Shown here piece after piece: positions 12,904 through 44,900 of a stretch of DNA of 64,000 nt (position 1 is the first letter of the stretch; every line of letters begins with the position of its first letter). Under the pieces are notes generated by a model that searched no databases, was not told the origin of the DNA, and worked only from the letters and a program-made list of their open reading frames with translations. A program made the position numbers and the translations under genes. The DNA is from Wenyingzhuangia sp. 2_MG-2023. GTDB lineage: Bacteria; Bacteroidota; Bacteroidia; Flavobacteriales; Flavobacteriaceae. Location of the stretch: contig NZ_JAUOSB010000001.1 of NCBI RefSeq assembly GCF_030548295.1, positions 434,001-498,000 of the forward strand, in the 5' to 3' direction.

Positions 12904-12984
12904 TATCAATGCTATATTTGTTTAAAAGCTTGGCAAAAATCTATAATTAATACCTTACAGAGCCTAACATATCATTACTTTTGT

Positions 12985-26706: not shown

Positions 26707-27507
26707 TTATAATTGTTGATTAAAAAAACGCAATGTATCTTTTATGTGTGTTTCCCAATAAACCCACTCATGTTTACCACTAAATTCCTCATAAACATGT
26801 GGAATATTAGCCGTCTCTAATTGTTGATGTAATGTTCTATTGTGCGCTATCAACAGATCATCCACACCACAATCAAAACGAACAGGAGGCAATAAAGTCT
26901 GATTTTTTTCCATCAAACTAAACACAGACTCATTTTCTATATTTTCTTGTTGATAATTCCCCAAACCTTCTTCTACAAACAATGCCATTTGTGGCAAATT
27001 TGTAATAGAACTATGTCCTGAAATCCCTTTAAATGTTTCTGGATATTTTGCTCCAATTCTTAACGCTCCATACCCTCCCATAGAAAGCCCTGAAATAAAA
27101 ACAGGTGAATTGACTGTAACTACATCTATATTTTCTCTAACAGCTGTAATCACGTCTTCTGCAATCCATTTTTCAAAGTCTAAACTATTGTGAGGTAGGT
27201 AAGCCGAACCATCACCCCAAAGACCATCAGAGGGCATGGCAATAATCATCGGTTCAATTTCCTTATCCTCTATCATTTTTTGAGCAGTTCTATGAACTCC
27301 TGCTTTTTGAGACCAAATCCAAGCACTTCCATACACTCCGTGCATTAAAACAACCAACGGAGTATCTTTTGACAATGTTACATTAGGCACAAACAAACAA
27401 ATGTCTCCTCTCCCTTTTAAATTGGATGTTTTTACTGTGATAAATCTTAAATTATCCGATTCGAATCTAGGATCTGATATTTCCGTTGTTTTAAATTTAG
27501 AATCCAT
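26707..27507 (-). CDS. Cytosolic esterase D / S-formylglutathione-hydrolase-like protein
   Basis: Alpha/beta hydrolase of the esterase D family (PF00756 type), 266 residues. The nucleophile is Ser142 in GLSMGGYGALR, the acid is in FDCGVDD (about 216) and the base is His246 in SGKHEW. There is no signal peptide, so it acts in the cytosol, unlike secreted carbohydrate esterases. It is the last gene of the P450 operon, 4 bases after GH2. Because the P450 should release formaldehyde, an S-formyl-thiol hydrolase role next to the dehydrogenase is attractive. Deacetylation of sugars is the alternative. Confidence 0.78.
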   Translation of the reverse strand: MDSKFKTTEISDPRFESDNLRFITVKTSNLKGRGDICLFVPNVTLSKDTPLVVLMHGVYGSAWIWSQKAGVHRTAQKMIEDKEIEPMIIAMPSDGLWGDGSAYLPHNSLDFEKWIAEDVITAVRENIDVVTVNSPVFISGLSMGGYGALRIGAKYPETFKGISGHSSITNLPQMALFVEEGLGNYQQENIENESVFSLMEKNQTLLPPVRFDCGVDDLLIAHNRTLHQQLETANIPHVYEEFSGKHEWVYWETHIKDTLRFFNQQL

Positions 27508-27511
27508 TTTT

Positions 27512-30013
27512 TTAGTGTATTTCTAGTGCTGTACTTATTGCTTTTAACTTTTTTGTGGTTGTTTTTAATGTCACTACTCCTTTTTGATTGGATTGCACAA
27601 AAATTACTGCCTGACCATTAAAAAACTTACGTTTGGGTTTTGACAAGTTTTGCATGTTTACAGGATCTCCATTTCCTGAAGCTAAAAATGTAGCAGCTCC
27701 ACTTACTTCTATGTCCATATTTTCATTAAAGTGAGGACACAAATTTCCTTCTTTATCAACTACAGAAACTACATACACGCCTACCTCACCATTTTTAATC
27801 GTCTTAATTTCTGGCTGAATGGTAATATGATGTGGAGCACCAGCAGTAACTCTTATCGTTTCGGCTACTTTTTTACCTTTTTTGTTATAAGCTACTATTT
27901 TTGCTTCTCCTGGTTCGTAAACTACATTGTCCCATACAATTGCATAAGCCTTGGTTAAATCCCAGTTACCACCTCCAGAAGCTTCTACAGCAATATCTGT
28001 ATTCTCAAAATTTAATTTCGCCAATGGTTTTTTAGTTTGTACTCCATAACTTTTACCATTTACAAACAGCTCTGCTTTATCATAAGATGTGTAACAAACT
28101 ACTGGAAAAGAGGTTACATTTAGCTCTGGCCAAGTCCAATGTGGAAAAAAGTGTAATACTTCTTTGTCTTTTCTCCATTGTGTTTGATACAAATAAAATT
28201 TATCTTTTTCCAAACCAACAAAATCAACGGGGGCAAAATAAGAACTTCTAGATTTTGCTTCATGATAAGGAGAGGGTTCACCTAAATAATCATAACCCGT
28301 CCAAACAAACTCTCCGTAAACGGTTGTGTTTTTTTCTTGAGATGCAAATTCCTTAAACGGAGGATATCCCCAAGGAACTTGAGTTGTTTCATAATTCCCA
28401 GGATGTCCATCTGCATATACTTTGGTGTTTAAAGAAGCCCCTCTTTTATTATGTAGTGTATCAAAAAAAACTGGAAATTTATAAGCATTACGAACACTTA
28501 CCGTTCCTCCTGTTTCACTAGCAAAAAACTTTAAATTAGGATATTCCTTTCTAATTTGTGCATAAATTCCAGGTTTGTAATTAAACGCGGCTACATCTAC
28601 TGTTAAAGCCATTCCACTTTTTAACGCGTTACCTGCCGAATTGAATCCAGCTGTTGTAGCACGTGTGGTGTCTAATGTCTTTACAATGTCATTTAAATAC
28701 TTGGTAATATGGTTAGGATCGTGTTTGTACTGCTCCATAATTTCGTTTCCAATACTCCACATCATCACACCTGGATGATTTCTATCTCTTAAAATCATAT
28801 CTGTCAAATCGGTTTTTGCCCACTTGTCAAAATGTTTAGAGTATCCGTTTATTACTTTACCAAGTTGCCATTCATCAAAAGCTTCATCAATAGCTAACAA
28901 ACCTAAAGAATCACACACATCTAAAGCCTCTGGTGCTGGTGGGTTGTGAGAAAAACGAATGGCGTTTACACCCATTTCTTTCATTTTAAGCATTTGTCTT
29001 ACAAACAATTCTTTGTGAAACGCTGCTCCTGTAGGTCCTAAATCATGATGCATGTTTACTCCTTGAAATCTTATTTTTTTATCATTCAAATAAAACCCAT
29101 CTACTTCATAACGAACAGTACGGATTCCGAACACTGTTTTGTAGGTATCAATTTCTGAATCTCCTTTAAAAATAGTTGTTTTTAAAGCATACAAATTCGG
29201 ATTTTCTAGACTCCACAAATCTGGTCTTGAAATTTTAAATTCTTCTTTTAACGTTTTTTTATTTTTGATAGTGATTTCTTGACTTTTAGCAGCAACCACC
29301 TTTCCTTTAGTATTGACTATTTCATTTTTAACGGTATAAGTTCCATTTCCTAACACCTCTACTCTTAAATTAGCAATGGCTTTTCTTTTACTAACTACAG
29401 GAGTGGTTACAAAAGTTCCCCACGTTTTTACATGTGTATTGTTGGTTTTAATAACTGATACTTTTCGGTACAAACCAGCTCCTGGATACCAACGAGATTG
29501 AGAGTTGTAATTTTCTAATCTTACAGCAATAGAATTATCACCAGGCTTTAAAAACTGAGTAATATCAAAATGAAAAGAAATATAACCAAAAGGTCTTTCT
29601 CCTACATAATGTCCATTAACGTAAACCTTGGCATTGCTCATTGCTCCATCAAATAACAACTGAACTTTTTCTTTTAAATCTGCTGATGAAACTTGGTGTT
29701 TGGTTCTGTACCAACCTACCCCAACATATGGCAAAGCACCACTCCTACCGTGGCGATATCTTGGTTTTGATTCCCCATCCTGAATTACCATAGTTAATTG
29801 TATATCGTTGGCAAAATCAAAATCTCCATGAGCAGCCCAGTCGTGAGGTACGGTTACATTTTCCCAATCCGCATCGTTAAATTTTTCTTGAAAAGCTGCA
29901 CCATAATCATAATTGGTAAATTTCCAGTTTTTTAACAACTCAACAGTTCTACTTTGAGCCATCATTAACTGGAAAGAAGAAATTAAAAGAATTATTGATA
30001 TGTATTTTTTCAT
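27512..30013 (-). CDS. Glycoside hydrolase family 2, beta-galactosidase-like
   Basis: An 833-residue exported GH2 enzyme with signal peptide (QLMMAQ). Sugar-binding and immunoglobulin-like domains (about 22-300) precede the TIM barrel. The acid/base is Glu424 in WSIGNEIME and the nucleophile is Glu500 in FFASETGG; RFSHNPPAPEALDVCDSLG is the usual barrel start. C-terminal beta domains follow, as in the DUF4982-containing group. In an agar/porphyran setting it would release galactose from oligosaccharide ends. It lies 21 bases after GH16. Confidence 0.9.
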   Translation of the reverse strand: MKKYISIILLISSFQLMMAQSRTVELLKNWKFTNYDYGAAFQEKFNDADWENVTVPHDWAAHGDFDFANDIQLTMVIQDGESKPRYRHGRSGALPYVGVGWYRTKHQVSSADLKEKVQLLFDGAMSNAKVYVNGHYVGERPFGYISFHFDITQFLKPGDNSIAVRLENYNSQSRWYPGAGLYRKVSVIKTNNTHVKTWGTFVTTPVVSKRKAIANLRVEVLGNGTYTVKNEIVNTKGKVVAAKSQEITIKNKKTLKEEFKISRPDLWSLENPNLYALKTTIFKGDSEIDTYKTVFGIRTVRYEVDGFYLNDKKIRFQGVNMHHDLGPTGAAFHKELFVRQMLKMKEMGVNAIRFSHNPPAPEALDVCDSLGLLAIDEAFDEWQLGKVINGYSKHFDKWAKTDLTDMILRDRNHPGVMMWSIGNEIMEQYKHDPNHITKYLNDIVKTLDTTRATTAGFNSAGNALKSGMALTVDVAAFNYKPGIYAQIRKEYPNLKFFASETGGTVSVRNAYKFPVFFDTLHNKRGASLNTKVYADGHPGNYETTQVPWGYPPFKEFASQEKNTTVYGEFVWTGYDYLGEPSPYHEAKSRSSYFAPVDFVGLEKDKFYLYQTQWRKDKEVLHFFPHWTWPELNVTSFPVVCYTSYDKAELFVNGKSYGVQTKKPLAKLNFENTDIAVEASGGGNWDLTKAYAIVWDNVVYEPGEAKIVAYNKKGKKVAETIRVTAGAPHHITIQPEIKTIKNGEVGVYVVSVVDKEGNLCPHFNENMDIEVSGAATFLASGNGDPVNMQNLSKPKRKFFNGQAVIFVQSNQKGVVTLKTTTKKLKAISTALEIH

Positions 30014-30034
30014 ACTTTGATTTTTTTGAAATGA

Positions 30035-30901
30035 TTATTTGTTACTATCCTCTAATTTGTACGTACGGATGTAATCTATATATGCTGTTCTATCTTTTTT
30101 ATTTGCACTTGCTACCTTTCCTCCGTCTTTAGGAATAGGATTCCAATCATAACTTTCTATAGAAAAATGCAAAAATAATTGTTGATCAAAATCTACAGGT
30201 GGTTTTAAAGTATACTGATATTCACCATCCAGATAAAAAAGTAATTCGGTGGGACTTTTCCACCAACACCCATAAGTATAAAACTTCTCTGAATTTTTTA
30301 TTTCGGGAATTTTCATCCCCTGACTTCTGGTTGATTCATTACATGTAGTCTTTCTATGAATGGTATTAGAATGCATTATTTTATTCCAATTCTTTCCCCA
30401 TTCTTCTGCCAAAGGAGATACAGAACCTATAGATTCTGTAATATCTATTTCGTGTTTTTTTCCACAAACACCTCTAGACATCAACCAAAAACCACCTCCC
30501 ATTTCCGTTTTGCTCATCTTAAATTTACTTTCAAAATAATGTCCATACGAAACAGCTTCTTTGGCACGAATAATTCCCCCGTAATAATTATACGTAGCAG
30601 GTGTTTTGTATTTGTGACTTACAAAAGTTTGATCTAATTGACCTACCTCTATGGTCATGTAGCCTTTTTTTATTGCAATTGAACTTTCTTTGAACAATGC
30701 TGGAGGTCTACCAATCCAACCAAAATCTGGATGTTTTTCTGGATCTGCTATCCATTTCTTTTTATCTAATTTTTCTCCTTTAAATTCATCCGAAAGATTT
30801 TCCATCAACTTCCATGATTTTCCTTTGGGAGCTTTTATTTGAGCTATAGACACACTTGATAACAAAACAAAAACCAAACCTAAAACAGCTATATTTTTCA
30901 T
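30035..30901 (-). CDS. Glycoside hydrolase family 16 (agarase/porphyranase-like)
   Basis: A 288-residue exported beta-jelly-roll enzyme with a signal peptide (SSVSIAQ). The GH16 active site is HEIDITES, giving nucleophile Glu151, Asp153 and acid/base Glu156. LSDEFKGEKLDKKKW and GRPPALFKESSIAI resemble the beta-agarase and beta-porphyranase branch more than laminarinases. There is no carbohydrate-binding module or T9SS tail. Agarase versus porphyranase cannot be settled by eye. It lies 4 bases after the dehydrogenase gene. Confidence 0.88.
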   Translation of the reverse strand: MKNIAVLGLVFVLLSSVSIAQIKAPKGKSWKLMENLSDEFKGEKLDKKKWIADPEKHPDFGWIGRPPALFKESSIAIKKGYMTIEVGQLDQTFVSHKYKTPATYNYYGGIIRAKEAVSYGHYFESKFKMSKTEMGGGFWLMSRGVCGKKHEIDITESIGSVSPLAEEWGKNWNKIMHSNTIHRKTTCNESTRSQGMKIPEIKNSEKFYTYGCWWKSPTELLFYLDGEYQYTLKPPVDFDQQLFLHFSIESYDWNPIPKDGGKVASANKKDRTAYIDYIRTYKLEDSNK

Positions 30902-30905
30902 GAAT

Positions 30906-32033
30906 TTAGTTTTTAAAAGTAATCACTCCTTTGGCATTTTTACCACTTAACATATCTGCAAAAGCTTGTTCTAAATTATCTAACGTATAGGTATTGGTAA
31001 TCATTTCATCCAACATCAAATCTCCTTTGTCATACAAAGCCTCTAATTTTGGAAAATCTATTTCTGGTCTTGCTGCACCATACAATGGGTTGATGTATTT
31101 TTTATCCCACTCAAACAAACGCATATCTACGGTAATTTCTTCTTCAATTCCGCTCACTTGAACCGCAGTACCTGCATTACGAATCATTGCCAAAGGAGCA
31201 ACTCCCAAAGCAGGAACGGCAGTACATTCAAAAGCAAAATCTGCTCCTCTTCCTTCTGTCATCGTTTTCACTATTTCAGCTGCTTGCATCAAACCTTTGT
31301 CCTTTTTATCAGCTAAAATCACATCTGTAGCTCCAAATTCCTGAGCCATTTTTAGACGATTTTCGTTAATATCTATCGCAATAATTTTTGCAGCTCCCGA
31401 AATTCTAGCCGCCTGAATTACATTTAATCCAACACCACCTGTACCTAAAACAACTACCGAACTACCGAACGTTACTTTTGCCGTGTTAAATACCGATCCA
31501 CAACCCGTCATTACTCCACAACAAACAATAGAGGCCGACTCAAAAGACAATTTTTTACTCTGCTTTTTTACCACTGCTGATGAGCGTACCAGAGTATATT
31601 CTGATAACGTTCCAATATTAAAAGAACGCTCAATAGGTTCTCCATTCCAAGTAGTTCCTTCTATTGCTACATGTCCGCCTGGCAATTTACCAGCATGATT
31701 TGCAATTACAGGAGAATTATTTTCACAAATATGTTGGTTTCCTTCTTGACACTGAAAACAGCTATAACAAGGAGTTGCCCAATTTAAAATTACCTCATCC
31801 CCCACTTTAACATTTTCTACAGCCTCACCAACAGCAGTCACAATACCTGCACCTTCATGCCCTAAAACAATAGGCATTCCCCAGGTTAACGAATCATGGT
31901 CAGTATGACACAAGCCAGAGGCCATCATTTTAACCAAAACCTCGTCTCCTTTAGGTTGATTTACTTTTATATTTTCTATTGTAAATTTCCCATCTCCTAT
32001 AGAAATGGCTGCTTTGCATTCAATAACACTCAT
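30906..32033 (-). CDS. Zinc-dependent class III-like alcohol dehydrogenase
   Basis: A medium-chain dehydrogenase of 375 residues. Catalytic zinc ligands are Cys42 (GLCHTDHD), His59/Glu60 (GHEGAG) and probably Cys172; the structural zinc site is Cys89, Cys92, Cys95 and Cys103. The nucleotide fold has GTGGVGLN near 197-204. The form is near the class III (formaldehyde-active) branch. Dehydrogenases beside the P450 of porphyran-degrading Bacteroidota have been tied to use of 6-O-methyl-galactose. It lies 13 bases after the reductase gene, so a role in formaldehyde or sugar oxidation is inferred. Confidence 0.88.
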   Translation of the reverse strand: MSVIECKAAISIGDGKFTIENIKVNQPKGDEVLVKMMASGLCHTDHDSLTWGMPIVLGHEGAGIVTAVGEAVENVKVGDEVILNWATPCYSCFQCQEGNQHICENNSPVIANHAGKLPGGHVAIEGTTWNGEPIERSFNIGTLSEYTLVRSSAVVKKQSKKLSFESASIVCCGVMTGCGSVFNTAKVTFGSSVVVLGTGGVGLNVIQAARISGAAKIIAIDINENRLKMAQEFGATDVILADKKDKGLMQAAEIVKTMTEGRGADFAFECTAVPALGVAPLAMIRNAGTAVQVSGIEEEITVDMRLFEWDKKYINPLYGAARPEIDFPKLEALYDKGDLMLDEMITNTYTLDNLEQAFADMLSGKNAKGVITFKN

Positions 32034-32046
32034 TTTCTGATTTTTT

Positions 32047-33279
32047 TTAGTTTACAACTATCGTTTTTAAATCTGACTCTGCATTGGCTAATTTTTCTTT
32101 ATCTAAAATTGCATTTGCTTTGATGTACTTAGTTCCAAAAACATAACTTTTTGCATTGTTGATGGAATCTACAGCCAACAACCTGTCTCCTTTAAAATAC
32201 CAAATAGAAAATTTATTTTCATCTTCAAACCTTACGACAGAATTATCAAAACCTTGAGACAATCCCACAATTTGTAATTTGATATCGTATTGATCTGACC
32301 AAAACCAAGGCAAAGCATTATAAACTGTTGGTTTTCCACAAATATTGGCTGCGGCAACTTTAGCCTGATCCACAGCATTTTGCACCGATTCTAATCTTAC
32401 AAAAGCATTGTACAATTTGTTATAATGATAGGTACAATCACCAATGGCATACACCCCCTCTTCAGATGTTTTGGCTGTTGGATCTACTTCAATTCCATTA
32501 TTTATAACAATCCCTACTTCCGAAGCCAACTCTGTATTTACTTTAATTCCAACTCCAATAATAATTACATCCGCCTCATAAGAAGAACCATCTGCACAAA
32601 TTACCGTGTTTTTATTTCCGTTTGTTTTTATTTCTGTAACCCCTTTATTTACACAAATATGCACACCATAATCCGTATGTATTTTTGTGAAAAAGGTTGA
32701 CAAATAAGGAGTCGTAACACGTGCTAATATTCTTTCTTCACGCTCTAAAACCGTAACATTTGCACCCAGTTTTTTTAATGATGCTGCTGTTTCTAAACCA
32801 ATATACCCTCCTCCAATAACTACAATTTTCTTTTGCTCACTTGCATGAAAAGCTTTTCGGATGTTTGCAACATCCGTAGCGTTACGTAAAGTAAACACGT
32901 TTTTTGCTTGTTGAATTCCTTGAATTGGTGGCACAAAAGCTCTTGCTCCAGTAGCTAAAACCAACACATCATAAGATTGAATGGTTCCATCATTTAGCTC
33001 AATCGTTTTAGCCTCTTTATCTATTTTAGAGACTACTTTTCCTAAAGACAACGTAATATTATCTTTCTCGTAGCTCTCTATAGGTTTTAGCAAATTGTTT
33101 TGAATGCTATCTTCTAGCTCCAAATATTTTTTGGATAACGGAGGTCTGTGGTAAGGAATGGTTTCATCTTTATCAAACAAAACAATGTTTCCTTGCCAAC
33201 CTTCTTTACGCAATGCAAAAGCAAAATTTACTCCAGCATGACTTGCTCCAATAACAACACATGTTTTGGTGTTAGACAT
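32047..33279 (-). CDS. Ferredoxin reductase (putidaredoxin-reductase type)
   Basis: A FAD- and NAD(P)H-dependent reductase of 410 residues. The FAD-binding motif is VIGASHAG at about 9-16, the NAD motif is VVIGGGYIGLETAASLKKLG near 150-170, and the second FAD motif is GVYAIGDCTYHYN. The form matches class I P450 electron-transfer reductases. It lies between the ferredoxin (16 bases) and the dehydrogenase, so it feeds electrons to the adjacent ferredoxin and P450. Confidence 0.93.
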   Translation of the reverse strand: MSNTKTCVVIGASHAGVNFAFALRKEGWQGNIVLFDKDETIPYHRPPLSKKYLELEDSIQNNLLKPIESYEKDNITLSLGKVVSKIDKEAKTIELNDGTIQSYDVLVLATGARAFVPPIQGIQQAKNVFTLRNATDVANIRKAFHASEQKKIVVIGGGYIGLETAASLKKLGANVTVLEREERILARVTTPYLSTFFTKIHTDYGVHICVNKGVTEIKTNGNKNTVICADGSSYEADVIIIGVGIKVNTELASEVGIVINNGIEVDPTAKTSEEGVYAIGDCTYHYNKLYNAFVRLESVQNAVDQAKVAAANICGKPTVYNALPWFWSDQYDIKLQIVGLSQGFDNSVVRFEDENKFSIWYFKGDRLLAVDSINNAKSYVFGTKYIKANAILDKEKLANAESDLKTIVVN

Positions 33280-33295
33280 TTTTATGAAGTTTTAA

Positions 33296-33604
33296 TTATT
33301 TAGCAACAGTTAACTCTATTCCATCAATAGCTTCTGAAATTTCAATTTGACAACACAAACGACTGAATTCATTTGCTTCATCGGCCAATTCTAACATGTC
33401 TGTCTCTATCTCGCTTGCATCCCCAACTTTTTCTAAATCTTTTTCTGCCACAAATACATGACAAGTAGCGCAAGAGCACACACCTCCACAATCTCCATCA
33501 ATTCCACTTACTCCATTGTTTACTGCCAATTGCATTACACTTCCAGAAGCTCCTTCTAAAGTTACTTTTTCATTATCGCTAGTGATAAAAGTTATTTTTG
33601 CCAT
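33296..33604 (-). CDS. [2Fe-2S] ferredoxin (putidaredoxin/adrenodoxin type)
   Basis: A 102-residue ferredoxin. The cluster ligands are Cys39, Cys45, Cys48 (C-x5-C-x2-C in DGDCGGVCSCATCHVF) and one of the tandem Cys84/85 in SRLCCQI. This spacing defines the vertebrate/putidaredoxin class that serves P450 monooxygenases. It sits between its reductase and the P450 in one operon. An extra Cys43 inside the loop is also present. Confidence 0.95.
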   Translation of the reverse strand: MAKITFITSDNEKVTLEGASGSVMQLAVNNGVSGIDGDCGGVCSCATCHVFVAEKDLEKVGDASEIETDMLELADEANEFSRLCCQIEISEAIDGIELTVAK

Positions 33605-33632
33605 AATCTTTATTTTTTATTGTGTTGTATTC

Positions 33633-34796
33633 TTAGTATTTATTAAACTTAACGGTGATAGCATTGTACCCTACTTTTCTATCAAACTCTCCCAATTCTT
33701 CTATATTTTCATCTGTATTGATGATATCCATAGAGGCTACCTTTTCTGCTAAAATTCCTAAAAGTGTTCTCATAATCTGACGAGCATGTGTAGCCCCCAA
33801 ACAATTATGTGTACCAAAACCAAAACTTACATGTGGATTCATTTTTCTATCAAAATCTACTTCGTTTGGATTTTCAAATACCGCAGCATCTCTGTTTGCT
33901 GAAGCCCAACATAAAGAAACTCTTGTGTCTGCTTTAATTGCATGTTCACAAACCTGTGTATCTTCCGTAACTACTCTACCCATGTGTGTTAAAGGAGCAA
34001 AATAACGAATCAACTCCTCTACAGCATTGTTGATCATTTCTGGATTTTCTTTAATTGCATGTAACGATTTAGGGTGTTCTGAAAAATAAGCGATGGAATT
34101 TGTCAATGCATTGATAACCGTATCTCTACCTCCTGCAAAAGTTAAAATCATGATTCCTTTTACTTCTTCATGCGTTAATTTTTTTCCGTTTACCTCGGAA
34201 CCTAACAACACTGAATACAAATCTTCTCCAGGATTTTTTGCTGCTTCTATAATTCGTTCATCAATGTAATTGTATAGAATATTTGCTTTGTCAGCATCCA
34301 AACTTTCACCTTCACTTCTAAACACATGCGTTCCCCAAGAAATCCAAGTTTCAGATTCTGAAAAAGGAGTATTTAACAAAAGGGTCAAGGCTCTAGATTG
34401 TAATTTCAAAGAAAAATCTCTTACGACCTCTACCTCATCCTTATTTAGAACTTCATCAACCAAAGCTGAAATTTGTTTGTGCAGTTTTTCTTGATATGCT
34501 GGTTCATTTGGTCTTTTAAACCATCCATCTAGCAAGCTTCTAAACTCTTTATGCAAAGGAGGATCTACTTCAAAAGGAATTTGTCTAGTATCTCTAATTT
34601 TTACTTCTGATGGAATTACAATACGTCCTACTTCTTCTCCACCCGACTGAAAGGTTTTCCAATTGTGTGCTGTTTTTCTAACATCTTTGTGACGTAGTAA
34701 AATAGTAACTGGATCGTTCTGATCGTCCATATGCCCATAACCCTTTTCTACTCTTGCTTTTTCAAAAGGATCTGAAAGTTTGCTTTTATCCATCAT
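33633..34796 (-). CDS. Cytochrome P450, probable 6-O-methyl-D-galactose demethylase (CYP236-like)
   Basis: Soluble bacterial P450 of 387 residues. The I-helix motif is AGGRDT (221-226), ExxR is E261-R264, and the haem loop is FGFGTHNCLG with the Cys332 ligand. With its ferredoxin and reductase it forms a class I system. The setting with GH16, GH2 and a zinc dehydrogenase is that of the CYP236 enzymes of agarolytic marine Bacteroidota, which oxidise 6-O-methyl-D-galactose to galactose and formaldehyde. It is the first gene of the seven-gene operon. Substrate assignment is by context. Confidence 0.85.
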   Translation of the reverse strand: MMDKSKLSDPFEKARVEKGYGHMDDQNDPVTILLRHKDVRKTAHNWKTFQSGGEEVGRIVIPSEVKIRDTRQIPFEVDPPLHKEFRSLLDGWFKRPNEPAYQEKLHKQISALVDEVLNKDEVEVVRDFSLKLQSRALTLLLNTPFSESETWISWGTHVFRSEGESLDADKANILYNYIDERIIEAAKNPGEDLYSVLLGSEVNGKKLTHEEVKGIMILTFAGGRDTVINALTNSIAYFSEHPKSLHAIKENPEMINNAVEELIRYFAPLTHMGRVVTEDTQVCEHAIKADTRVSLCWASANRDAAVFENPNEVDFDRKMNPHVSFGFGTHNCLGATHARQIMRTLLGILAEKVASMDIINTDENIEELGEFDRKVGYNAITVKFNKY

Positions 34797-34854
34797 ATCA
34801 TCAAAATATTTTTCACAAAATTGATATTATTATTCCTTGCATATTTTTCTAATA

Positions 34855-34884
34855 TTGTCTATTATTTGAACTATATTAACTTTG
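34855..34884 (+). promoter_or_regulatory. Promoter of the AraC-type regulator
   Basis: TTG (34855-34857) is spaced by exactly 19 bases from TAACTTTG (34877-34884), a match to the Bacteroidota TTG-N19-TAnnTTTG promoter. It lies about 39 bases upstream of the TTG start codon, in the divergent gap with the P450 gene. Confidence 0.65.
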
Positions 34885-34922
34885 TGGTAGGTTTTAATAA
34901 CAATCCTGTGAATTAAATTGAT

Positions 34923-35777
34923 TTGAAAGCAATAAAACAACAAATATCTCAACAAGCCAATCAATCATTTACCGTAAGTGAATTTGAAAAACCTTATTTT
35001 GATTCTCCTTGGCATTTTCATACAGAATACGAACTTACCTACGTACATAAAGGTTACGGAACTCGATTTGTAGGTGCTAGTGCAGAATTGTTTCAAGAAG
35101 GGGATATGGTTCTAATTGGTACCTGTGTTCCTCATTACTGGAGGTGTGACGAAGATCATTATCAAGACAACGGATTGTCCGCTCACAGTATTGTAATTCA
35201 GTTCAAACCCGAATTGTTTTTTCACACAGAATTACCCGAAATGGATGCTATTAGATTGTTGCTAAAAAAATCTGCAAGTGGTGTAGCCTTCCAATTTTCT
35301 AAAACTTATCAAGATACTTTTTTTGCTATTTTAAAAAAGACTGGATTTGAACAATTGATGGAATTTTACAATTTGTTACATCAAATGAGTAAAGATAAAA
35401 GTCAAAGACTGCTGTCCATTTCTTTTGATTCACAATTGTATCAAGCCAAAGACAGTAAAATATTTCAAGAAGTCATCAACTATATTTTTACGCACTTTAA
35501 AGACGAAATATCATTGATAAAAGTTTCTGAAAAAGTACACATGTCTACTCCCGCTTTTTGTAGGTATTTTAAAAAGAGAACTCAAAAAACTTTTACAGAA
35601 TATGTGAACAATCTTAGAATAGCACAGGCATCAAAATTATTGATAGAAACAGACATGAGTATTTCTCAAATTTGTTTTGAATGTGGCTATAATAGTTTGA
35701 GTTATTTTAACAGACAGTTTAAAAAACACAAGAAAATTGGTCCTAAAGAATACAAAAAACTTCATATTATTTCATAA
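34923..35777 (+). CDS. AraC-family transcriptional regulator
   Basis: A 284-residue regulator with an N-terminal cupin (SPWHFHTEYELTYVHKGYGTRFVG, a sugar-binding beta barrel) and a C-terminal double helix-turn-helix (about 185-284; ISLIKVSEKVHMSTPAFCRYFKKRTQ and ISQICFECGYNSLSYFNRQFKK). A TTG start is forced: an in-frame stop lies 9 bases upstream and no ATG is near. It is divergent from the P450 operon and most likely controls it in response to a sugar such as methyl-galactose (inference). Confidence 0.9.
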   Translation: MKAIKQQISQQANQSFTVSEFEKPYFDSPWHFHTEYELTYVHKGYGTRFVGASAELFQEGDMVLIGTCVPHYWRCDEDHYQDNGLSAHSIVIQFKPELFFHTELPEMDAIRLLLKKSASGVAFQFSKTYQDTFFAILKKTGFEQLMEFYNLLHQMSKDKSQRLLSISFDSQLYQAKDSKIFQEVINYIFTHFKDEISLIKVSEKVHMSTPAFCRYFKKRTQKTFTEYVNNLRIAQASKLLIETDMSISQICFECGYNSLSYFNRQFKKHKKIGPKEYKKLHIIS

Positions 35778-35828: not shown

Positions 35829-36866
35829 TTAAGGTGCCGGATTGGGTTGCAACTTATGAATTCCGTCTATTTCTTTTAAAATTTCTTCTGATAACGTTAC
35901 CTTGACAGAAGCTATATTTTCTTTTAACTGATCCATTTTTGTAGCTCCAATAATAGTAGACGTTACAAAAGGTTGTTGCTCTATAAAAGCCAAAGAAAGA
36001 TCTACCAAACTTACATTGTATTTTTTAGCCAAATCATTGTATTGTTCTGCCAAAAACATTGCTTGTTTGTTGCTATATCTGTTATAGTTTGGAAATAATT
36101 TTATACGAGAACCTTCTGGCAAATTGTCGTCAAAATACTTTCCTGATAACACTCCAAAACCTAAAGGAGAATACGCTAACAAACCAACATTTTCTCTCAT
36201 GCTAACTTCTGCCATTCCTACTTCATAGCTTCTATTCAACAAAGAATATGGATTTTGCATGGTTTTACAACGAGTTAGACCGTTTTTGTCTGCTTCATTC
36301 AAATGTCTCATCGTTCCCCATGGAGTTTCGTTAGACAAACCGTAATGACGAATTTTACCTGATTTTACCAAACTATCCATCGCCTCTACCAACTCAGCTA
36401 TTTTATCATCCCATTTTTCTTCTGGGTTGTGCTTGTAATTTAAATTTCCGAAAAAGTTTACATTTCTATCTGGCCAGTGCAATTGATACACATCTATATA
36501 GTCTGTTTGTAAACGTTTCAAGTTATCTTCAATCGTTTCTAAAATCAATTTTTTGGTAAACTGCTGAGGTTCTCTTATATAAGACAAACCAGGATTAGGA
36601 CCTGCAATTTTACTTGCAATAACCAACTCTTCCCTTTTTTGATTTTTCAACCAAGTACCTATCACTCTTTCAGAATTTCCCTGAGTTTCTTTTCTACCTG
36701 GTACAGAATACAACTCTGCTGTATCAATAAAATTTACTCCCTGTTCAAAAGCATAATCTAATTGTTCATGTCCTTCTGCTTCGGTGTTTTGTTCTCCCCA
36801 AGTCATACTTCCTAAACAGATTTTAGACACTTTAATATCTGTATTTGGTATATTGGTATATTTCAT
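35829..36866 (-). CDS. tas: Aldo/keto reductase, Tas-like
   Basis: A 345-residue TIM-barrel NADPH oxidoreductase. It follows E. coli Tas closely along its length: LGSMTWGEQNTEAEGHEQLDYA, IDTAELYSVPGRKETQG, QLHWPDRNVNFFG and NPYSLLNRSYEVGMAEVS; catalytic Tyr53 is in AELYSVP. It lies next to the P450 regulator but is a separate unit transcribed toward it. A role in reducing an aldehyde or sugar from the pathway is possible but not shown. Confidence 0.85.
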   Translation of the reverse strand: MKYTNIPNTDIKVSKICLGSMTWGEQNTEAEGHEQLDYAFEQGVNFIDTAELYSVPGRKETQGNSERVIGTWLKNQKREELVIASKIAGPNPGLSYIREPQQFTKKLILETIEDNLKRLQTDYIDVYQLHWPDRNVNFFGNLNYKHNPEEKWDDKIAELVEAMDSLVKSGKIRHYGLSNETPWGTMRHLNEADKNGLTRCKTMQNPYSLLNRSYEVGMAEVSMRENVGLLAYSPLGFGVLSGKYFDDNLPEGSRIKLFPNYNRYSNKQAMFLAEQYNDLAKKYNVSLVDLSLAFIEQQPFVTSTIIGATKMDQLKENIASVKVTLSEEILKEIDGIHKLQPNPAP

Positions 36867-39337: not shown

Positions 39338-39871
39338 ATGGATGCAGTAGATGTTTTGGTAAAAAAATTTCAAGAAGAAAAAGATCTTAAAGCGTATGAA
39401 CAACTATACAATATGTATCATAAAAGCATGTTGGGGGTGATTTATAACATTTTACAAGATGAGGATTTGTCTAAAGATATTTTACAAGAAGTATTTTTAA
39501 AAGTTTGGAATAACATTGAAAGCTATTCTTCTAAACGAGGACGTTTTTTTACTTGGTTGCTCAACATTTCAAGAAACGCAGCTATTGACAAAACACGATC
39601 TAAAGAATATAAAGAGCTTAAAAAGAACCAAAGCATAGATATTTTCGTAAATATATCACAGCCAGAAGAAAAGGAGATTAGTGATGAGGAAAAAACACTC
39701 TATACTAAAATTCAAAAACTATCTGAAAACTGTAGAAAACTAATCGACTTGATTTTTTACAAAGGATATACACAAAAAGAAACATCGGAAGAATTAGACA
39801 TTCCTCTAGGTACGGTAAAGACTAGAAGCCGTAGTTGTTTAAATAGTTTAAAATTAAGTATCAATCAATAG
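39338..39871 (+). CDS. ECF RNA polymerase sigma factor
   Basis: A 177-residue sigma-70 of the ECF group. Region 2 holds DILQEVFLKVWNNIESYSSKRGRFFTWLLNISRNAAIDKTR (core and -10 binding) and region 4 holds YTQKETSEELDIPLGTVKTRSRSCLNSL (-35 binding). Four bases separate it from the RskA-type anti-sigma gene. It probably controls the DUF4331/TPR/TonB genes transcribed toward it. Confidence 0.92.
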   Translation: MDAVDVLVKKFQEEKDLKAYEQLYNMYHKSMLGVIYNILQDEDLSKDILQEVFLKVWNNIESYSSKRGRFFTWLLNISRNAAIDKTRSKEYKELKKNQSIDIFVNISQPEEKEISDEEKTLYTKIQKLSENCRKLIDLIFYKGYTQKETSEELDIPLGTVKTRSRSCLNSLKLSINQ

Positions 39872-39875
39872 GATT

Positions 39876-40682
39876 ATGATAGACGTAAAAGAATACATAG
39901 ATTCTGGAATACTTGAACTATATGTGGCAGGTACCCTTAATAGAGAAGATAGCTATGAGGTATACACATACATACAACAATATCCAGAAATAAAAGAGTA
40001 TGTTAAAAACATTGAACATACCGTTATAAAAATAGCAGAGATTAGCAATCACCAAGAAATGAAAGCTCATCCGTTTGCTAAATTGATGAATTCCATCAAC
40101 AAAAAAGAAACCAAAGTAATTCCAATTCAATGGTACAGTTATATGGGATGGGCTGCTAGTGTGGTACTTACTATAGGTATTTTTAGTTTGTACACCAGCA
40201 ACAATTCTCTTAAAACCAACTTGACAAAACAGATTGCAACGAATCAAACATTAGACAATCAAAAAAGCACTATTCAACAAGATTTGATAGCTACCAAAAT
40301 AGCACTAGACACCAAAGATGAAGTAATTGCTTTTATGGCTTCTAAAAAAACTTTAAAAATAGATTTGGCAGGACAGACAATAGCTCCAGAAAGTTATGCA
40401 GCAATTTATTGGGACAAAGACACCGATGAAATGTATGTGGATTTGAATGGTTTACCGCCAGCTCCTGAAGGAAAAGTATATCAATTATGGTCGTTAACAT
40501 TAAATCCTTTAACACCTACAAGTTTAGGAACCTTAGATGCTTATAACAATGGAGATAGGTTTATTAAAGTATCGAACAGCAATACATCACAAGCATTTGG
40601 AATTACACTAGAACCTGTTGGTGGTAGTGCATCTCCAACATTGGATCAATTGTATACGTTAGGAATGACAAAGATCTCTTAA
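39876..40682 (+). CDS. RskA-type anti-sigma factor
   Basis: A 268-residue single-pass membrane protein. A cytosolic N terminus (anti-sigma part) is followed by a membrane helix at about 90-107 (GWAASVVLTIGIFSLY), a coiled stretch, and the RskA domain with LPPAPEGKVYQLWSL and AFGITLEPVGGSASPT, both family signatures. It is paired with the ECF sigma gene, which it should bind and hold inactive. A terminator follows. Confidence 0.88.
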   Translation: MIDVKEYIDSGILELYVAGTLNREDSYEVYTYIQQYPEIKEYVKNIEHTVIKIAEISNHQEMKAHPFAKLMNSINKKETKVIPIQWYSYMGWAASVVLTIGIFSLYTSNNSLKTNLTKQIATNQTLDNQKSTIQQDLIATKIALDTKDEVIAFMASKKTLKIDLAGQTIAPESYAAIYWDKDTDEMYVDLNGLPPAPEGKVYQLWSLTLNPLTPTSLGTLDAYNNGDRFIKVSNSNTSQAFGITLEPVGGSASPTLDQLYTLGMTKIS

Positions 40683-40703
40683 TTTCACAAAACACAATTG
40701 TAT

Positions 40704-40745
40704 AATTAGAAAGAGCCACCTCTATAGAGATGGCTCTTTCTAATT
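40704..40745. terminator. Terminator between the anti-sigma and TonB receptor genes
   Basis: Two 20-base arms (40704-40723 and 40726-40745) pair with one mismatch, between convergent genes. The stem is long and could act on both strands. Confidence 0.8.
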
Positions 40746-40761
40746 TAAGATTTCTTTGAAA

Positions 40762-42966
40762 TTAAAACTTGTAACGAATACTCGTTTTTAGGAAAAAAGG
40801 AGTTCCTGGTGTAAAATGTATTTCTTCTACAGAATTTACCTCTCCTGCCAATCTTGATTCTGTTGCAAATTGTGTTTCGTTCCAAGCAACATCAAATAAG
40901 TTTTGAATTTGAACCCCTAAAATTATTTTATCCCATTCATAACCTACATTCAAATTGGTTAATGTATATCCTTTTGCTACAATAGAATTATCTTCATTTG
41001 CTGGTCTATTTTTCAAATGTAAAAAATCAATCCCTCCATAAAACCCAGATTCTTTTTTATAATTTACTCCTCCTTTTAGAGTAAAATCTGGAGCTAAAGG
41101 CACGTAATCTTGTCCATTAGGTTCATCTCTAAATCTTGCATGTGTATAATTTGCATCTAAGTTTACAAATAACGAGTTTACAGGTTGATACCTAGTGCTT
41201 AATGAAACACCTTTTCTAATAGAAGCTCCATTAGGTTCAACAACTCCTGCATCACCTACATAAACAAATTCTTGCTCCGATAGCATACCCCACGCAGTAA
41301 ACCCAACTAACAAATCAGGTACTGCTTTCCATAAAAACCCTACATCTGTAGTATAAGCCTTAGGAATATCATTACCCAAAGAACTCAAAACCAACCTACT
41401 GTCATTGGTATGAAATCCTTGACCAACTTTTGCATAAGTTTGAAATAGGTTATTTGGTGTATAGGTAACACTCAATTTAGGACTTACCACCAATGCATTT
41501 TGCTCTTTTAATTTATTGTCTGTTCCTAAAAAATCTTGATAACCAAAGTTAAAACGATCCAATCTTACAGAAGGCGTAAGGTTCCATTTTCCAATCTCAA
41601 AGTTGGCACTGATGTAACTAAAAAAGTTAGTTTCATTTACATCTCCGTATTGAATTCTCTCTAAAATTTCCGATTTATTCTTGGTACTAGACAATTCAAC
41701 CTTGTCAGCTCTATCAGCTCTAACACCTATCCCCGCATTTAAAACCACTTCCGAAGTTCCCAAATCAAATTTCTCTTGATAATCTGACTGGTAACCAAAT
41801 AAGTTTCTACTTTCTTTTTGATGAATTTGATCTCCATCAACAGGATTGTTTAAGAAAAAAGTAAAGTTGGAATACAAGTCAAAATTATAATTAGTATAGT
41901 ACAACAAGTGCTTAAAGCGAGACTCATCGTTTTTATTTTTGATGATATTTAAAGATACATTGGTTCTAGAAGTTTCTCCTCCTTCAGTATCATCAATAGA
42001 TCCAAATCTTGAAATTGTTCCGTCTGCCACCGCTCTTTCTGGAATTTGACCTGAAGCATTCCAATTACTCACAAAATGAGAAAATGAAAACACAATTTTA
42101 GAATCTTCTGTAGTTTTAGAATATTTGCTATTGATGTTTATTCTTTTAAAATTCTGTGGACTCTCAAAAGGCCCATCAGAATTGATATACTCTGTAGCAA
42201 TGTACGCATGCTCATTGGCTTTTTTAAGAAATGAATTTAAAAACACCAAACGTTGCGTATTGAACTGACCTACCTCTAGCTGTATAGAGTTGTTTTTTAA
42301 TGTTTCTTTGCTAATAACATTTACCGTACCTGTGGTCGCAAAATTTCCTTGACTATAGTCATAAGTTCCTGCTTTAAAATCTAGCTTGTCAATAGTTTCT
42401 GGAATTACAAAATGCAAATCCGCATATCCCTGCCCATGTGCATGAGAAACCATGTTAACCGGCACTCCATCTACATTTACTTGCAAATCTGTTCCGTGAT
42501 CAATATCAAAACCACGATAAAAAATTTGTTCTGCTTTTCCTCCTCCTGCATGTTGTCCAATAATCAACCCTGGCACTTTTGTCAACAATTCTTGTGAAGA
42601 CTTTACAGGATTTTTCTGAACATCTACTTCTGTTAAAAGACTAGAAGTATTCACTCCGTTAAACAACACCACCTGCTCCAAAGCAACCGTAGTATTCGCT
42701 ACCAAAATAGTAATATTGTTTTTTTTGTACACTATTTTCTTTTTATCATAACCTAACTTTGTAAAAACAATTGTGTCTCCAACTCTTGTATTTTCTAATT
42801 CAAAACTACCTCCAAAATTGGTGTGTGCATGTGCTTTGGTTCCTGTGTTATATACCAACATATAGTCTACAGGAACATTGTTTGTATCTAAAACTTTTCC
42901 CTTCAATACTTGCGCAAAACTAAAACTGCATGAAAGCAGTAAAATCAGTGATGTGATTTTTCTCAT
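40762..42966 (-). CDS. TonB-dependent receptor of the ECF/DUF4331 cluster
   Basis: A 734-residue outer-membrane receptor. The signal peptide (CSFSFAQ) precedes a CarboxypepD-like domain (about 19-95), a plug (ELLTKVPGLIIGQHAGGGKAEQIFYRG, then VNVDGVPVNMVSHAHGQGYADLHF) rich in His, and a barrel ending FFLKTSIRYKF. The His-rich plug segment could hint at a metal substrate (weak inference). It lies 4 bases after the TPR lipoprotein gene, so it shares that unit. Confidence 0.87.
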   Translation of the reverse strand: MRKITSLILLLSCSFSFAQVLKGKVLDTNNVPVDYMLVYNTGTKAHAHTNFGGSFELENTRVGDTIVFTKLGYDKKKIVYKKNNITILVANTTVALEQVVLFNGVNTSSLLTEVDVQKNPVKSSQELLTKVPGLIIGQHAGGGKAEQIFYRGFDIDHGTDLQVNVDGVPVNMVSHAHGQGYADLHFVIPETIDKLDFKAGTYDYSQGNFATTGTVNVISKETLKNNSIQLEVGQFNTQRLVFLNSFLKKANEHAYIATEYINSDGPFESPQNFKRININSKYSKTTEDSKIVFSFSHFVSNWNASGQIPERAVADGTISRFGSIDDTEGGETSRTNVSLNIIKNKNDESRFKHLLYYTNYNFDLYSNFTFFLNNPVDGDQIHQKESRNLFGYQSDYQEKFDLGTSEVVLNAGIGVRADRADKVELSSTKNKSEILERIQYGDVNETNFFSYISANFEIGKWNLTPSVRLDRFNFGYQDFLGTDNKLKEQNALVVSPKLSVTYTPNNLFQTYAKVGQGFHTNDSRLVLSSLGNDIPKAYTTDVGFLWKAVPDLLVGFTAWGMLSEQEFVYVGDAGVVEPNGASIRKGVSLSTRYQPVNSLFVNLDANYTHARFRDEPNGQDYVPLAPDFTLKGGVNYKKESGFYGGIDFLHLKNRPANEDNSIVAKGYTLTNLNVGYEWDKIILGVQIQNLFDVAWNETQFATESRLAGEVNSVEEIHFTPGTPFFLKTSIRYKF

Positions 42967-42970
42967 ATTC

Positions 42971-44251
42971 TTATAATTTTAAAACTTGATTCGTTTTTAC
43001 TGGACCTAACTCAAAACTAGCTTCTAACAATTCTTGTTTGATAATTTCCAAAGCATCTCGTCTTTCGTTCATTTCATACACTTTTGCTACTCTTAACAAA
43101 ACTTCTGGCTCATAAGATTCTACAACTTGGTTTGTTTTTAAAATATGCATCCCTTCATAAGGATCTTTAAAACAAGCAGTTGCTAATGCCAACATAGAAT
43201 ACGATGCTGCTGTTGGTCTATTATTCACCTCTCTTAGCGCGGTTTGGTAGGCTTCTTTGTAATTTTTAGTATCTATCAAGATGTCAAAGTTATACTTATT
43301 ATACATTTCTCCATACTTAGCATCTTTAACTTTTGACCAATATTGAGTTAATTTTTCTGACACTTCTTTATACTCATAGGTTGCAATTTCGTACGCAAAT
43401 AAATCCACATCTACTCCTTTGTATCTTTCATCTAACACCTTCAATATTTTTTTAGCTTCTAAAATATCTTTATCATTGGAAAAAGAAATCCATGCAATTT
43501 TTTTTAATGCGTAATGATTGTTTGGATCTTTTTCTAAGGTTTTTAAATAATATTTATACGATTTTTCAATGTCTCCATGATGTCCGTAATAATCTGCTAA
43601 ATTGGTAATACACCACAATTCTAACTCTTCGTATTCTTTTTTTTGCGCACCTGCCAACGCTTCTTCCATATAAGAAATGGTTGCTTCCAAATCTCCTTTG
43701 TGATCTTTCCATTTGGCAATTCTAATCAAGTAATCAAAAGATCTTTTATTTTCTATTTTTCTTAAATATTCATAAGCAATTTTCTCTTTCCCTAATTCTA
43801 AATTTACGTCAAACATCATTTTTATGGTTTCTTGTTTCTGATCACCATTCATTTCTGCCTTTTGCAACAATTCCAACGCTTTTTTAAATTGATGTTGAGA
43901 AATATAATTTCTAGCCAACGATCTTAAATAACCCGATTGTTTCCCTCCTGATTTTTCTACAGCAAGTACTAATAAATTTTCAGCTTTTTTTAAATGTTGA
44001 ATGTCTCCTGTTTTAGAAAACAATTGAGTTTCTAAACCTGCTATTTTTGCTCCATAAGGAAATTGATTGGGATTTTTCACTAACTTTTCTTCCCAAAAAG
44101 AAAGATTGGTGTGTATTCTTTCAGAAGCATCATTTTCTTGCGTTTGTAAATAAGTTGTCAAGTCTTTTAAATCAACCACATCTTGAACCTTCTTTTCACA
44201 AGAAATAAAGACAAGAGCTAGGGTAGCTATAAATATGTAAGTGTTTTTCAT
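42971..44251 (-). CDS. Tetratricopeptide-repeat lipoprotein
   Basis: A 426-residue lipoprotein whose signal ends VFISC (start MKNTYIFIATL at 44251; the longer reading is unlikely). The mature part is all helical, with TPR-like pairs (DIEKSYKYYLKTLEKDPNNHYALKKIAW is the clearest). It lies between the DUF4331 unit, which ends at a hairpin, and the TonB receptor. I infer that it is a periplasmic or surface scaffold for the receptor. Confidence 0.78.
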   Translation of the reverse strand: MKNTYIFIATLALVFISCEKKVQDVVDLKDLTTYLQTQENDASERIHTNLSFWEEKLVKNPNQFPYGAKIAGLETQLFSKTGDIQHLKKAENLLVLAVEKSGGKQSGYLRSLARNYISQHQFKKALELLQKAEMNGDQKQETIKMMFDVNLELGKEKIAYEYLRKIENKRSFDYLIRIAKWKDHKGDLEATISYMEEALAGAQKKEYEELELWCITNLADYYGHHGDIEKSYKYYLKTLEKDPNNHYALKKIAWISFSNDKDILEAKKILKVLDERYKGVDVDLFAYEIATYEYKEVSEKLTQYWSKVKDAKYGEMYNKYNFDILIDTKNYKEAYQTALREVNNRPTAASYSMLALATACFKDPYEGMHILKTNQVVESYEPEVLLRVAKVYEMNERRDALEIIKQELLEASFELGPVKTNQVLKL

Positions 44252-44279
44252 AATTTGGGAAAGTTTTAGGTCATAATTA

Positions 44280-44317
44280 AAAAACAAATGCTGATATAAA
44301 TTCAGCATTTGTTTTTA
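44280..44317 (-). terminator. Terminator after the DUF4331 unit
   Basis: A perfect 14-bp stem (44281-44294 with 44302-44315) lies just past the second DUF4331 gene and before the TPR gene; it may reduce, not abolish, transcription of the TPR and receptor genes. Confidence 0.75.
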
Positions 44318-44329
44318 TAAAATCTTGTA

Positions 44330-44881
44330 TTACCAAGGGGATGCTAAGTAAGGAAAAGATGTTGAAAAATCTTTGTCATTAGCACTCACGTTGTCGTCAG
44401 ACAATGTTGGATTTTCAGAAAAATCTTCACCTCCAAAAATCAACAACAATTCTACTGTAATCACATCATCTGCCAAAGCTCTACCTGATAATGTATTCTC
44501 AGCAACACCATCATAAAAAGTAGTTTTACCGTCTAAACTAACATTCAATACATCTGTTGCTAATAAGTTTGTGAAAGCAGTAGCATCTTGCCCTAAAGCG
44601 TTCATATCAGTAGACTGGGTAAAAGCAGGACTTAATGCTTCTAAATTGGTTTTAAACTTACTTGCAAAAGCAGCTGCTTGCTCAGAAGGAATTGTCATAT
44701 TAAAAGTATCCTTATCTTCCGAAGCAACAAAAACTGTATTTACTGCGGGTCTTCCCATTTGATCTTCTAAAACAAAAACAGCTTCTGTTTCCATTTTCAT
44801 ATCGTTATCATCATCAGAACAGTTAAAAGAAACTGCTGCAATTAATAACATGCATCCTATAGTTGTTATTTTACGTATCAT
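44330..44881 (-). CDS. DUF4331 C-terminal-half-like lipoprotein
   Basis: A 183-residue lipoprotein (signal ending SFNC, Cys21, followed by SDDDND). The segment MGRPAVNTVFVASEDKDTFNM resembles the latter half of DUF4331 proteins, where a similar G-x-P-x-V-N motif occurs. The other half is encoded as a separate protein immediately upstream, 19 bases away. I therefore read the pair as a split DUF4331. The molecular function of the family is unknown. Confidence 0.65.
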   Translation of the reverse strand: MIRKITTIGCMLLIAAVSFNCSDDDNDMKMETEAVFVLEDQMGRPAVNTVFVASEDKDTFNMTIPSEQAAAFASKFKTNLEALSPAFTQSTDMNALGQDATAFTNLLATDVLNVSLDGKTTFYDGVAENTLSGRALADDVITVELLLIFGGEDFSENPTLSDDNVSANDKDFSTSFPYLASPW

Positions 44882-44900
44882 AATTTTCAGTTTTTAAAGT

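Follow-up and report, generated by a model that had tools for sequence, protein, structure and literature searches.

The demethylation of 6-O-methyl-galactose (G6Me) by a cytochrome P450, which yields galactose and formaldehyde, has been established by others in marine Bacteroidota, and the closest described systems are the gene clusters of Formosa agariphila and Zobellia galactanivorans (PMC10033563, which cites Reisky 2018 and Robb 2018). In F. agariphila the P450 and its redox partners are encoded with an alcohol dehydrogenase (ADH) and an esterase, with GH2 and GH16 genes between the latter two. The ADH is a published puzzle: it is required on methyl-galactose, as its knockout in Zobellia impairs growth on G6Me and not on galactose, and its structure is solved, but no physiological substrate of Fo/ZoADH was found (PMC10033563). 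Here we describe a stretch of 64,000 nucleotides (the window) from Wenyingzhuangia sp. 2_MG-2023 (contig NZ_JAUOSB010000001.1, positions 434,001 to 498,000), in which a P450 operon occupies positions 26707-34796. Because the F. agariphila gene set is in print (PMC10033563), this operon is already known, and the idea of a genuinely new P450 operon was rejected. Our reading, to which we give slightly less than even weight, is that the operon demethylates 6-O-methyl-D-galactose of methylated porphyran, that its ADH and esterase form a separable one-carbon module for any sugar O-demethylase, and that a PhyH-family oxygenase is an alternative demethylase in relatives. It is based on gene content, co-occurrence, conserved catalytic residues and interchangeable oxygenase contexts.

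The operon holds the following features, and the gaps between its seven open reading frames (ORFs) are 4, 21, 4, 13, 16 and 28 bp.

26707..27507, minus strand: esterase, a cytosolic alpha/beta-hydrolase (PF00756)
27512..30013, minus strand: GH2, beta-galactosidase-like, with a signal-like N-terminus (GH2 domains and DUF4982 by Pfam)
30035..30901, minus strand: GH16, porphyranase-B-like, with a signal-like N-terminus (best match 3juu, then 4awd and PorA)
30491..30493, minus strand: codon of GH16 Gly137 (MGGGFW), from alignments with PorA, PorB, 4awd and 8EP4
30906..32033, minus strand: Zn-dependent ADH (ADH_N/ADH_zinc_N; matches to 8h2a and 8h2b)
32047..33279, minus strand: ferredoxin reductase (Pyr_redox_2 and Reductase_C)
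33296..33604, minus strand: 2Fe-2S ferredoxin, redox partner (Fer2, PF00111)
33633..34796, minus strand: cytochrome P450, by homology a 6-O-methyl-galactose O-demethylase (PF00067; match to 6g5o)

Families of window proteins were assigned with Pfam and NCBIfam models, whereas the signal-like N-termini of GH16 and GH2, and the lack of one in the esterase, were judged by eye. The initial annotation had described seven tightly spaced leftward genes with a divergent AraC regulator and had placed the esterase in the cytosol; all ORFs were found where it had put them, and this observation is confirmed. Its interpretation of the operon is partly supported. It gave no role to the ADH and the esterase and did not raise PhyH, and the main interest lies there.

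The ADH-esterase pair and its oxygenases

To follow the pair, 397 genomes of the family, apparently the same ones each time, were searched with P450, ADH, esterase and PhyH (thresholds E <= 1e-80 for P450 and ADH, 1e-40 for esterase and 1e-30 for PhyH); genomes and loci are denoted below by G and L numbers. Since these searches score only some first-pass candidates (often 4 to 6 per genome), the resulting genome sets stand for close relatives. The ADH was found in 41 of the 397 genomes and the esterase in 41, and the two sets are identical; the P450 was found in 29, all within this set. In a wider sample of the phylum the ADH occurs in 8/247 genomes, four of which were already in the first sample, and two genomes are counted twice across samples, as shared coordinates identify G334 as the genome of L017 and G544 as that of L027. 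The esterase lies on the same strand as the ADH in all 53 readable ADH loci, with a gap of <=106 bp in 46 of them and of 2.5-3.5 kb in the other 7, where it is filled by GH2 or by GH16 and GH2 as in the window. Among 36 P450 loci from named genomes, 27 have both ADH and esterase, 0 have just one, and 9 have neither at full length. Eight of these 9 have an ADH match in their genome: seven of the matches are full length and lie elsewhere, and L002 yields just an ADH fragment, the P450 locus of L002 itself also ending in one. The ninth locus belongs to a Saprospiraceae metagenome-assembled genome (L032).

Without exception, the 12 genomes that have the pair but lack this P450 carry a PhyH-family protein, which is found in 21/356 pair-less genomes. 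In total PhyH occurs in 40/397 genomes, 19 of the 41 with the pair and the same 21 others, and at least one of P450 and PhyH is present in 41/41 pair genomes vs 21/356 others. Neighbourhoods were read in all 12 genomes and in G334, where P450 and pair are on separate contigs. Seven of the 12 have PhyH immediately next to the pair; it is 5.6 kb off in L136, and elsewhere in G104, G211, G212 and G247. Seven genomes carry both PhyH and the P450, and in three of them (G236, G377 and G388) the PhyH gene comes after that of the esterase. That the ADH only balances NADH for the P450 system is very improbable, since in these 12 of 41 pair genomes PhyH stands in place of this P450 and PhyH-class enzymes need no NADH; the balancing role was raised, and doubted, by the authors of PMC10033563.

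The PhyH proteins match PF05721 (two proteins and that of L211) and carry the HxD...H plus Arg pattern, with H165, D167, H253 and R264/R265 invariant in 28/28 aligned sequences (28 of the 30 available), and a predicted model (pLDDT 77.5) has a PhyH-type fold. Judging from gene context only, we infer that the relatives' PhyH is an alternative sugar O-demethylase; a PhyH sugar O-demethylase was not among the matches listed in our literature searches. If true, this would mean an unrecognised route for methylated glycans that can be traced in genomes.

The pairs linked to PhyH occur in different sugar contexts. L128, L129, L135, L136 and L138 hold genes which by similarity belong to an L-galactose or L-fucose type route: the copies of L138/L136 score over the cut-off of L-fucose dehydrogenase, FucP and tagaturonate reductase models and under that of L-fuconolactonase and galactarate dehydratase models, with a PfkB kinase and a 2-keto-3-deoxy-6-phosphogluconate aldolase by Pfam. 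We infer that the gene set of these five loci serves L-galactose catabolism. At L132:11569-12519 and L139:8093-9049 a PhyH paralogue, 50-52% identical to L128 PhyH, stands with ADH and esterase in loci that hold GH38, and in L139 also GH92 (alpha-mannosidase genes), which suggests use of methylated mannose. In L131:7423-19587 PhyH, ADH and esterase lie beside DHDPS-family, GDSL, PIG-L/glucosamine isomerase and GH20 genes, possibly for use of amino sugars or O-methyl sialic acid. Even in the distant Bacteroidota genome G568 (L211:8592-11244) the three genes stand together (identities PhyH 23%, ADH 55%, esterase 41%), overlapping by 4 bp each when ORFs are called from first start codons. This run of L211 lies below a WD40-like/amidohydrolase gene.

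One ADH-esterase type accompanies several oxygenases and sugars, which points to the one-carbon unit as the feature common to these reactions; that ADH and esterase are distributed identically, and that they also stand with another type of oxygenase in other sugar loci, likewise speaks for a shared one-carbon product. Moreover, the ADHs of the P450 and PhyH contexts do cluster but do not form one clade each: the PhyH label requires 6 changes, at least 3 of them forced by starred branches, in a quick tree without bootstraps (ADHs of 360-400 aa and >300 bits, 54 with that of the window, plus L211; the truncated L002 left out). Context-specific ADH residues were sought as columns with disjoint residue sets, or with differing residues each in >80% of a group, and no column separates 31 P450-context from 8 PhyH-context ADHs (L211 and L031 excluded as long branches). 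Unseparated clades and the lack of a separating column are as expected if both contexts share a substrate. In its widest form, which we put forward tentatively, the pair would be a portable kit for one-carbon oxidation in marine Bacteroidota that follows two demethylases of unrelated kinds, a P450 and a hitherto unrecognised PhyH enzyme, into galactose, L-galactose/fucose, mannose and possibly sialic acid loci, and the methyl group would end as formate via a formyl ester rather than be left as formaldehyde.

Several genomic observations weigh against this reading. Genome counts are not independent, because the genomes are related, and the 12 genomes lack this P450 only, other P450 families not having been searched there. 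The P450 lies away from the pair in G540 and G544, and in G575, which has the pair, the P450 and PhyH matches are not close (26% for P450; 25% and elsewhere for PhyH). PhyH occurs without the pair in 21 of its 40 genomes, and a strict tie between the two was rejected on this count. It adjoins L-galactose-type genes in 4 of 14 pair-less PhyH genomes read, with L187 a fifth in which ORF calling had missed PhyH; among the genomes with both oxygenases, G011, G184 and G227 have it beside such genes and apart from the pair, and in G129 it neither follows the esterase nor adjoins such genes. Because PhyH also adjoins these genes where the pair is absent or at a distance, it may serve the L-galactose route in a role that does not need the pair. 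As an observation of its own, the pair of G575 (L210, 8431-10359) has neither a P450 nor a PhyH gene in view nearby, and its genome has no close homologue of either.

The proposed reaction of the pair

Over its whole length the window ADH can be aligned with 8h2a (600.9 bits) and 8h2b (576.6 bits), presumably the structures of FoADH and ZoADH, as 8h2a has Phe at position 136 in agreement with the published Phe136 of Fo/ZoADH. The window ADH has C42, H59, C172 and F138 invariant in 53/53 alignment rows. A further ADH alignment covers 33 of 49 available sequences and the esterase alignment 38 of 49, that of the window being added to both. In this family C42, H59 and C172 correspond to the catalytic-Zn positions. 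Similarity, Zn ligands and the Phe136 equivalent all agree in assigning the window ADH to the Fo/ZoADH clade. The ADH also matches the one-carbon dehydrogenase models TIGR03989, TIGR03451 and TIGR02818, all under cut-off. In the esterase, S142, D217 and H246 are invariant in 38/38 aligned sequences. Its predicted model (pLDDT 94.2) finds ferulic acid esterases as best Foldseek matches by E-value; S-formylglutathione hydrolases come after them and reach a query TM-score of 0.81, the maximum of the list (shared with 3s8y).

We propose that, inside the cell, the P450 with ferredoxin and reductase would hydroxylate the methyl group, or a PhyH-type Fe/2-oxoglutarate oxygenase would do so in its place in relatives. 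The ADH would then convert an O- or S-hydroxymethyl hemiformal (sugar-O-CH2OH, or formaldehyde on a carrier) into a formyl ester, and the esterase would release formate from this ester or from an S-formyl-thiol, so that the module regenerates NADH.

Published assays of Fo/ZoADH and the model scores of the pair count against this scheme. The enzymes were inactive on formaldehyde alone, without dismutation, on formaldehyde with glutathione, mycothiol, bacillithiol, cysteine, CoA, ergothioneine or two aromatic thiols, and on G6Me or galactose; they favour aromatic aldehydes, and their pocket is narrow (PMC10033563). The window ADH reaches 226.5 against the FrmA model TIGR02818 (cut-off 543.95) and the esterase 34.5 against the FghA model TIGR02821 (cut-off 281.7), and the top rank of ferulic acid esterases among the fold matches points the same way. 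The RuMP (ribulose monophosphate) genes of Zobellia are induced on porphyran (PMC10033563), and the RuMP gene hps scores over cut-off in 6/41 pair genomes vs 1/21 with PhyH only and 0/17 with neither (38 pair-less genomes); because of this induction and of an hps that is, if anything, more frequent with the pair, free formaldehyde does arise in some of the pair genomes. As a general formaldehyde sink RuMP was rejected, with hps over cut-off in just those 6 of 41 (any match in 16/41, the sub-cut-off ones maybe paralogues) and nothing matching hps in the genome of the window. Judged by hps, RuMP goes with the pair and does not replace it.

The same data allow the pair to be merely a part of red-galactan clusters, where the ADH reduces some aldehyde, the esterase deacylates a sugar and the link to PhyH reflects shared clusters. 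The reported preference for aromatic aldehyde reduction (PMC10033563), the ferulic acid esterase matches, and PhyH beside L-galactose-type genes without or away from the pair all fit this explanation, which we nevertheless hold to be somewhat unlikely: pairs occur in mannosidase and sialic-acid-like loci in which no galactan genes were seen, ADH and esterase share one and the same 41-genome set, and the growth defect of the ADH knockout is seen on G6Me, not on galactose (PMC10033563).

Within the one-carbon module, the carrier half of the scheme may be taken alone: formaldehyde would combine with a thiol or other carrier, the ADH would make an S-formyl adduct and the esterase would free formate, like FrmA-FrmB. 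That one ADH family serves varied sugar loci and shows no context-specific columns fits a sugar-free substrate, S-formylglutathione hydrolases appear in the fold matches of the esterase, and the authors of PMC10033563 themselves suggest an unknown thiol. Their eight named thiols were negative, though, and the pocket is reported as too narrow for mycothiol or bacillithiol (PMC10033563), and on its own this form is unlikely.

In the other half taken alone, the oxygenase product sugar-O-CH2OH would be oxidised by the ADH before it can break down, and the esterase would deformylate the resulting 6-O-formyl sugar. Some ADHs are known to turn hemiacetals into esters; on the other hand, hemiacetals are short-lived, and one ADH with a narrow pocket would have to tolerate different sugars. 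The inactivity on G6Me, galactose and formaldehyde would be accounted for, and the word hemiacetal is absent from the main text of PMC10033563, so that the published negative assays, as far as could be seen there, apparently left out the sugar hemiacetal. The reported product is free formaldehyde (PMC10033563), and we regard this form as rather improbable.

P450, GH16 and GH2 in the proposed handling of methylated porphyran

The window P450 matches the solved chain 6g5o, which we take to be the Zobellia methyl-galactose P450, with 632.8 bits over residues 2-385 (384/387 residues aligned), and is 71-72% identical to the P450s of four Zobellia loci. The heme motif FGFGTHNCLG and AGGRDT can be read from the sequence, and at E <= 0.001 no other protein of this genome matches PF00067. 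Homologues of the ferredoxin were found in 36/36 and of the ferredoxin reductase in 35/36 P450 loci of other genomes, and because of this the grouping of the three genes is not due to chance; the earlier proposal that the two adjacent proteins are the P450's partners therefore holds. The same proposal set the P450 beside CYP236-type enzymes. The near full-length match to 6g5o shows kinship to a solved P450; for the family name CYP236A the literature search found no paper. By similarity and adjacent partners the protein has the features of such a 6-O-methyl-galactose P450, and demethylation is predicted by homology.

Outside the cytoplasm, GH16 and GH2 would free 6-O-methyl-D-galactose from methylated porphyran, the former aided by a methyl-tolerant glycine. 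GH16 has no Pfam match; its nearest solved relative is porphyranase B (3juu, 8.3e-54, 186.1 bits), far ahead of the 6-O-methyl-porphyranase BpGH16C (8EP4) with only 34.8 bits, which by these scores tends to speak against membership in GH16 subfamily 14. What it shares with BpGH16C is the residue directly before the FW motif, which in the alignments is Gly137 in the window, Gly132 in 8EP4, Thr in PorB and 4awd, and Ser in PorA. According to PMC12316285, PorA Ser129/PorB Thr137 is replaced by Gly132 in BpGH16C and by Gly in two other 6-O-methyl-porphyranases, and a glycine at this position opens space for the methyl group. The GH16 of L208, 72% identical to that of the window, likewise has the pocket glycine, and the two loci share the order esterase, GH2, GH16, ADH. 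The operon GH16 is thus predicted to accept methylated porphyran, and its glycine would tie the depolymerisation of this substrate directly to demethylation. GH2 reaches 759.5 bits with the GalB model NF041463 (under the cut-off of 900) and 648.5 bits with 5t98. Depolymerisation outside the cell by GH16 and GH2, as the initial annotation had it, fits their signal-like N-termini, the likeness to porphyranase B and the pocket glycine. L208 has a further GH16 (12108-12974) that is close to the 6-O-methyl-porphyranase 8EP4 (362.4 bits) and lies a few genes from the PorB-like, glycine-bearing one.

Regulator, surroundings and comparison with known systems

The following features lie upstream of the P450.

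34797..34922, no strand: P450/AraC divergent intergenic region, with a conserved core around TTGAACTAT, an invariant block in a 4-sequence alignment
34923..35777, plus strand: divergent AraC-family regulator with a cupin domain (HTH_18 and Cupin_2)

The initial annotation put the whole operon under one AraC switch, which may hold: of 36 P450 loci, 13 have an AraC homologue directly divergent from the P450 gene and 28 have one anywhere in the locus. An operator motif was sought in the intergenic region; the 4 sequences yield the conserved core only, and no operator is claimed. Beyond AraC, an aldo-keto reductase gene at 35829-36866 is convergent with it and also lies beside AraC in G383 (L140). 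It scores 408.9 bits with NCBIfam PRK10625, slightly under the cut-off of 415, and was rejected as an operon member, with no aldo-keto reductase match in the other 19 loci besides G383.

In the window's genome the operon lies at 460.7-468.8 kb of contig C1. Two GH86 porphyranase-type proteins are encoded, one at C1:46.9 kb near SusC/SusD and the other on contig C2, and C1:135-148 kb holds an L-galactose-type cluster that includes a protein of the alpha-L-fucosidase family. The uptake genes are thus outside the operon, the GH86/SusCD cluster being ~0.4 Mb off on the same contig, and from these positions porphyran capture and L-galactose use are encoded elsewhere. Ten other large ORFs of the window comprise, by Pfam, three TonB receptors or receptor-like proteins and otherwise general cell functions. 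A leftward run at 39338-45566 holds a TonB receptor (Pfam) with a TPR-like protein and small secreted proteins (both by eye), and beside this run a rightward sigma-factor/anti-sigma-like pair is seen by eye at 39338-40682.

Compared with described enzymes, the relatives' PhyH matches SnoK/SnoN and EvdO2 in sequence and fold. SnoK and EvdO2 act on antibiotic sugars, and the group differs from the relatives' PhyH in belonging to antibiotic biosynthesis (by titles for SnoK/SnoN). With FrmA-FrmB the window shares a Zn-ADH of the same superfamily adjoining a PF00756-family alpha/beta hydrolase; it differs in that the pair is far under the TIGR02818/TIGR02821 cut-offs and that glutathione is inactive for Fo/ZoADH (PMC10033563). 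With the 6-O-methyl-galactose cluster of F. agariphila and Z. galactanivorans, as described in PMC10033563, no difference in gene set was seen: the genes are the same, and, as F. agariphila also shows, GH2 and GH16 separate the ADH from the esterase. What the window adds to this published cluster is the methyl-pocket glycine of its GH16 and the comparison with genomes without this P450.

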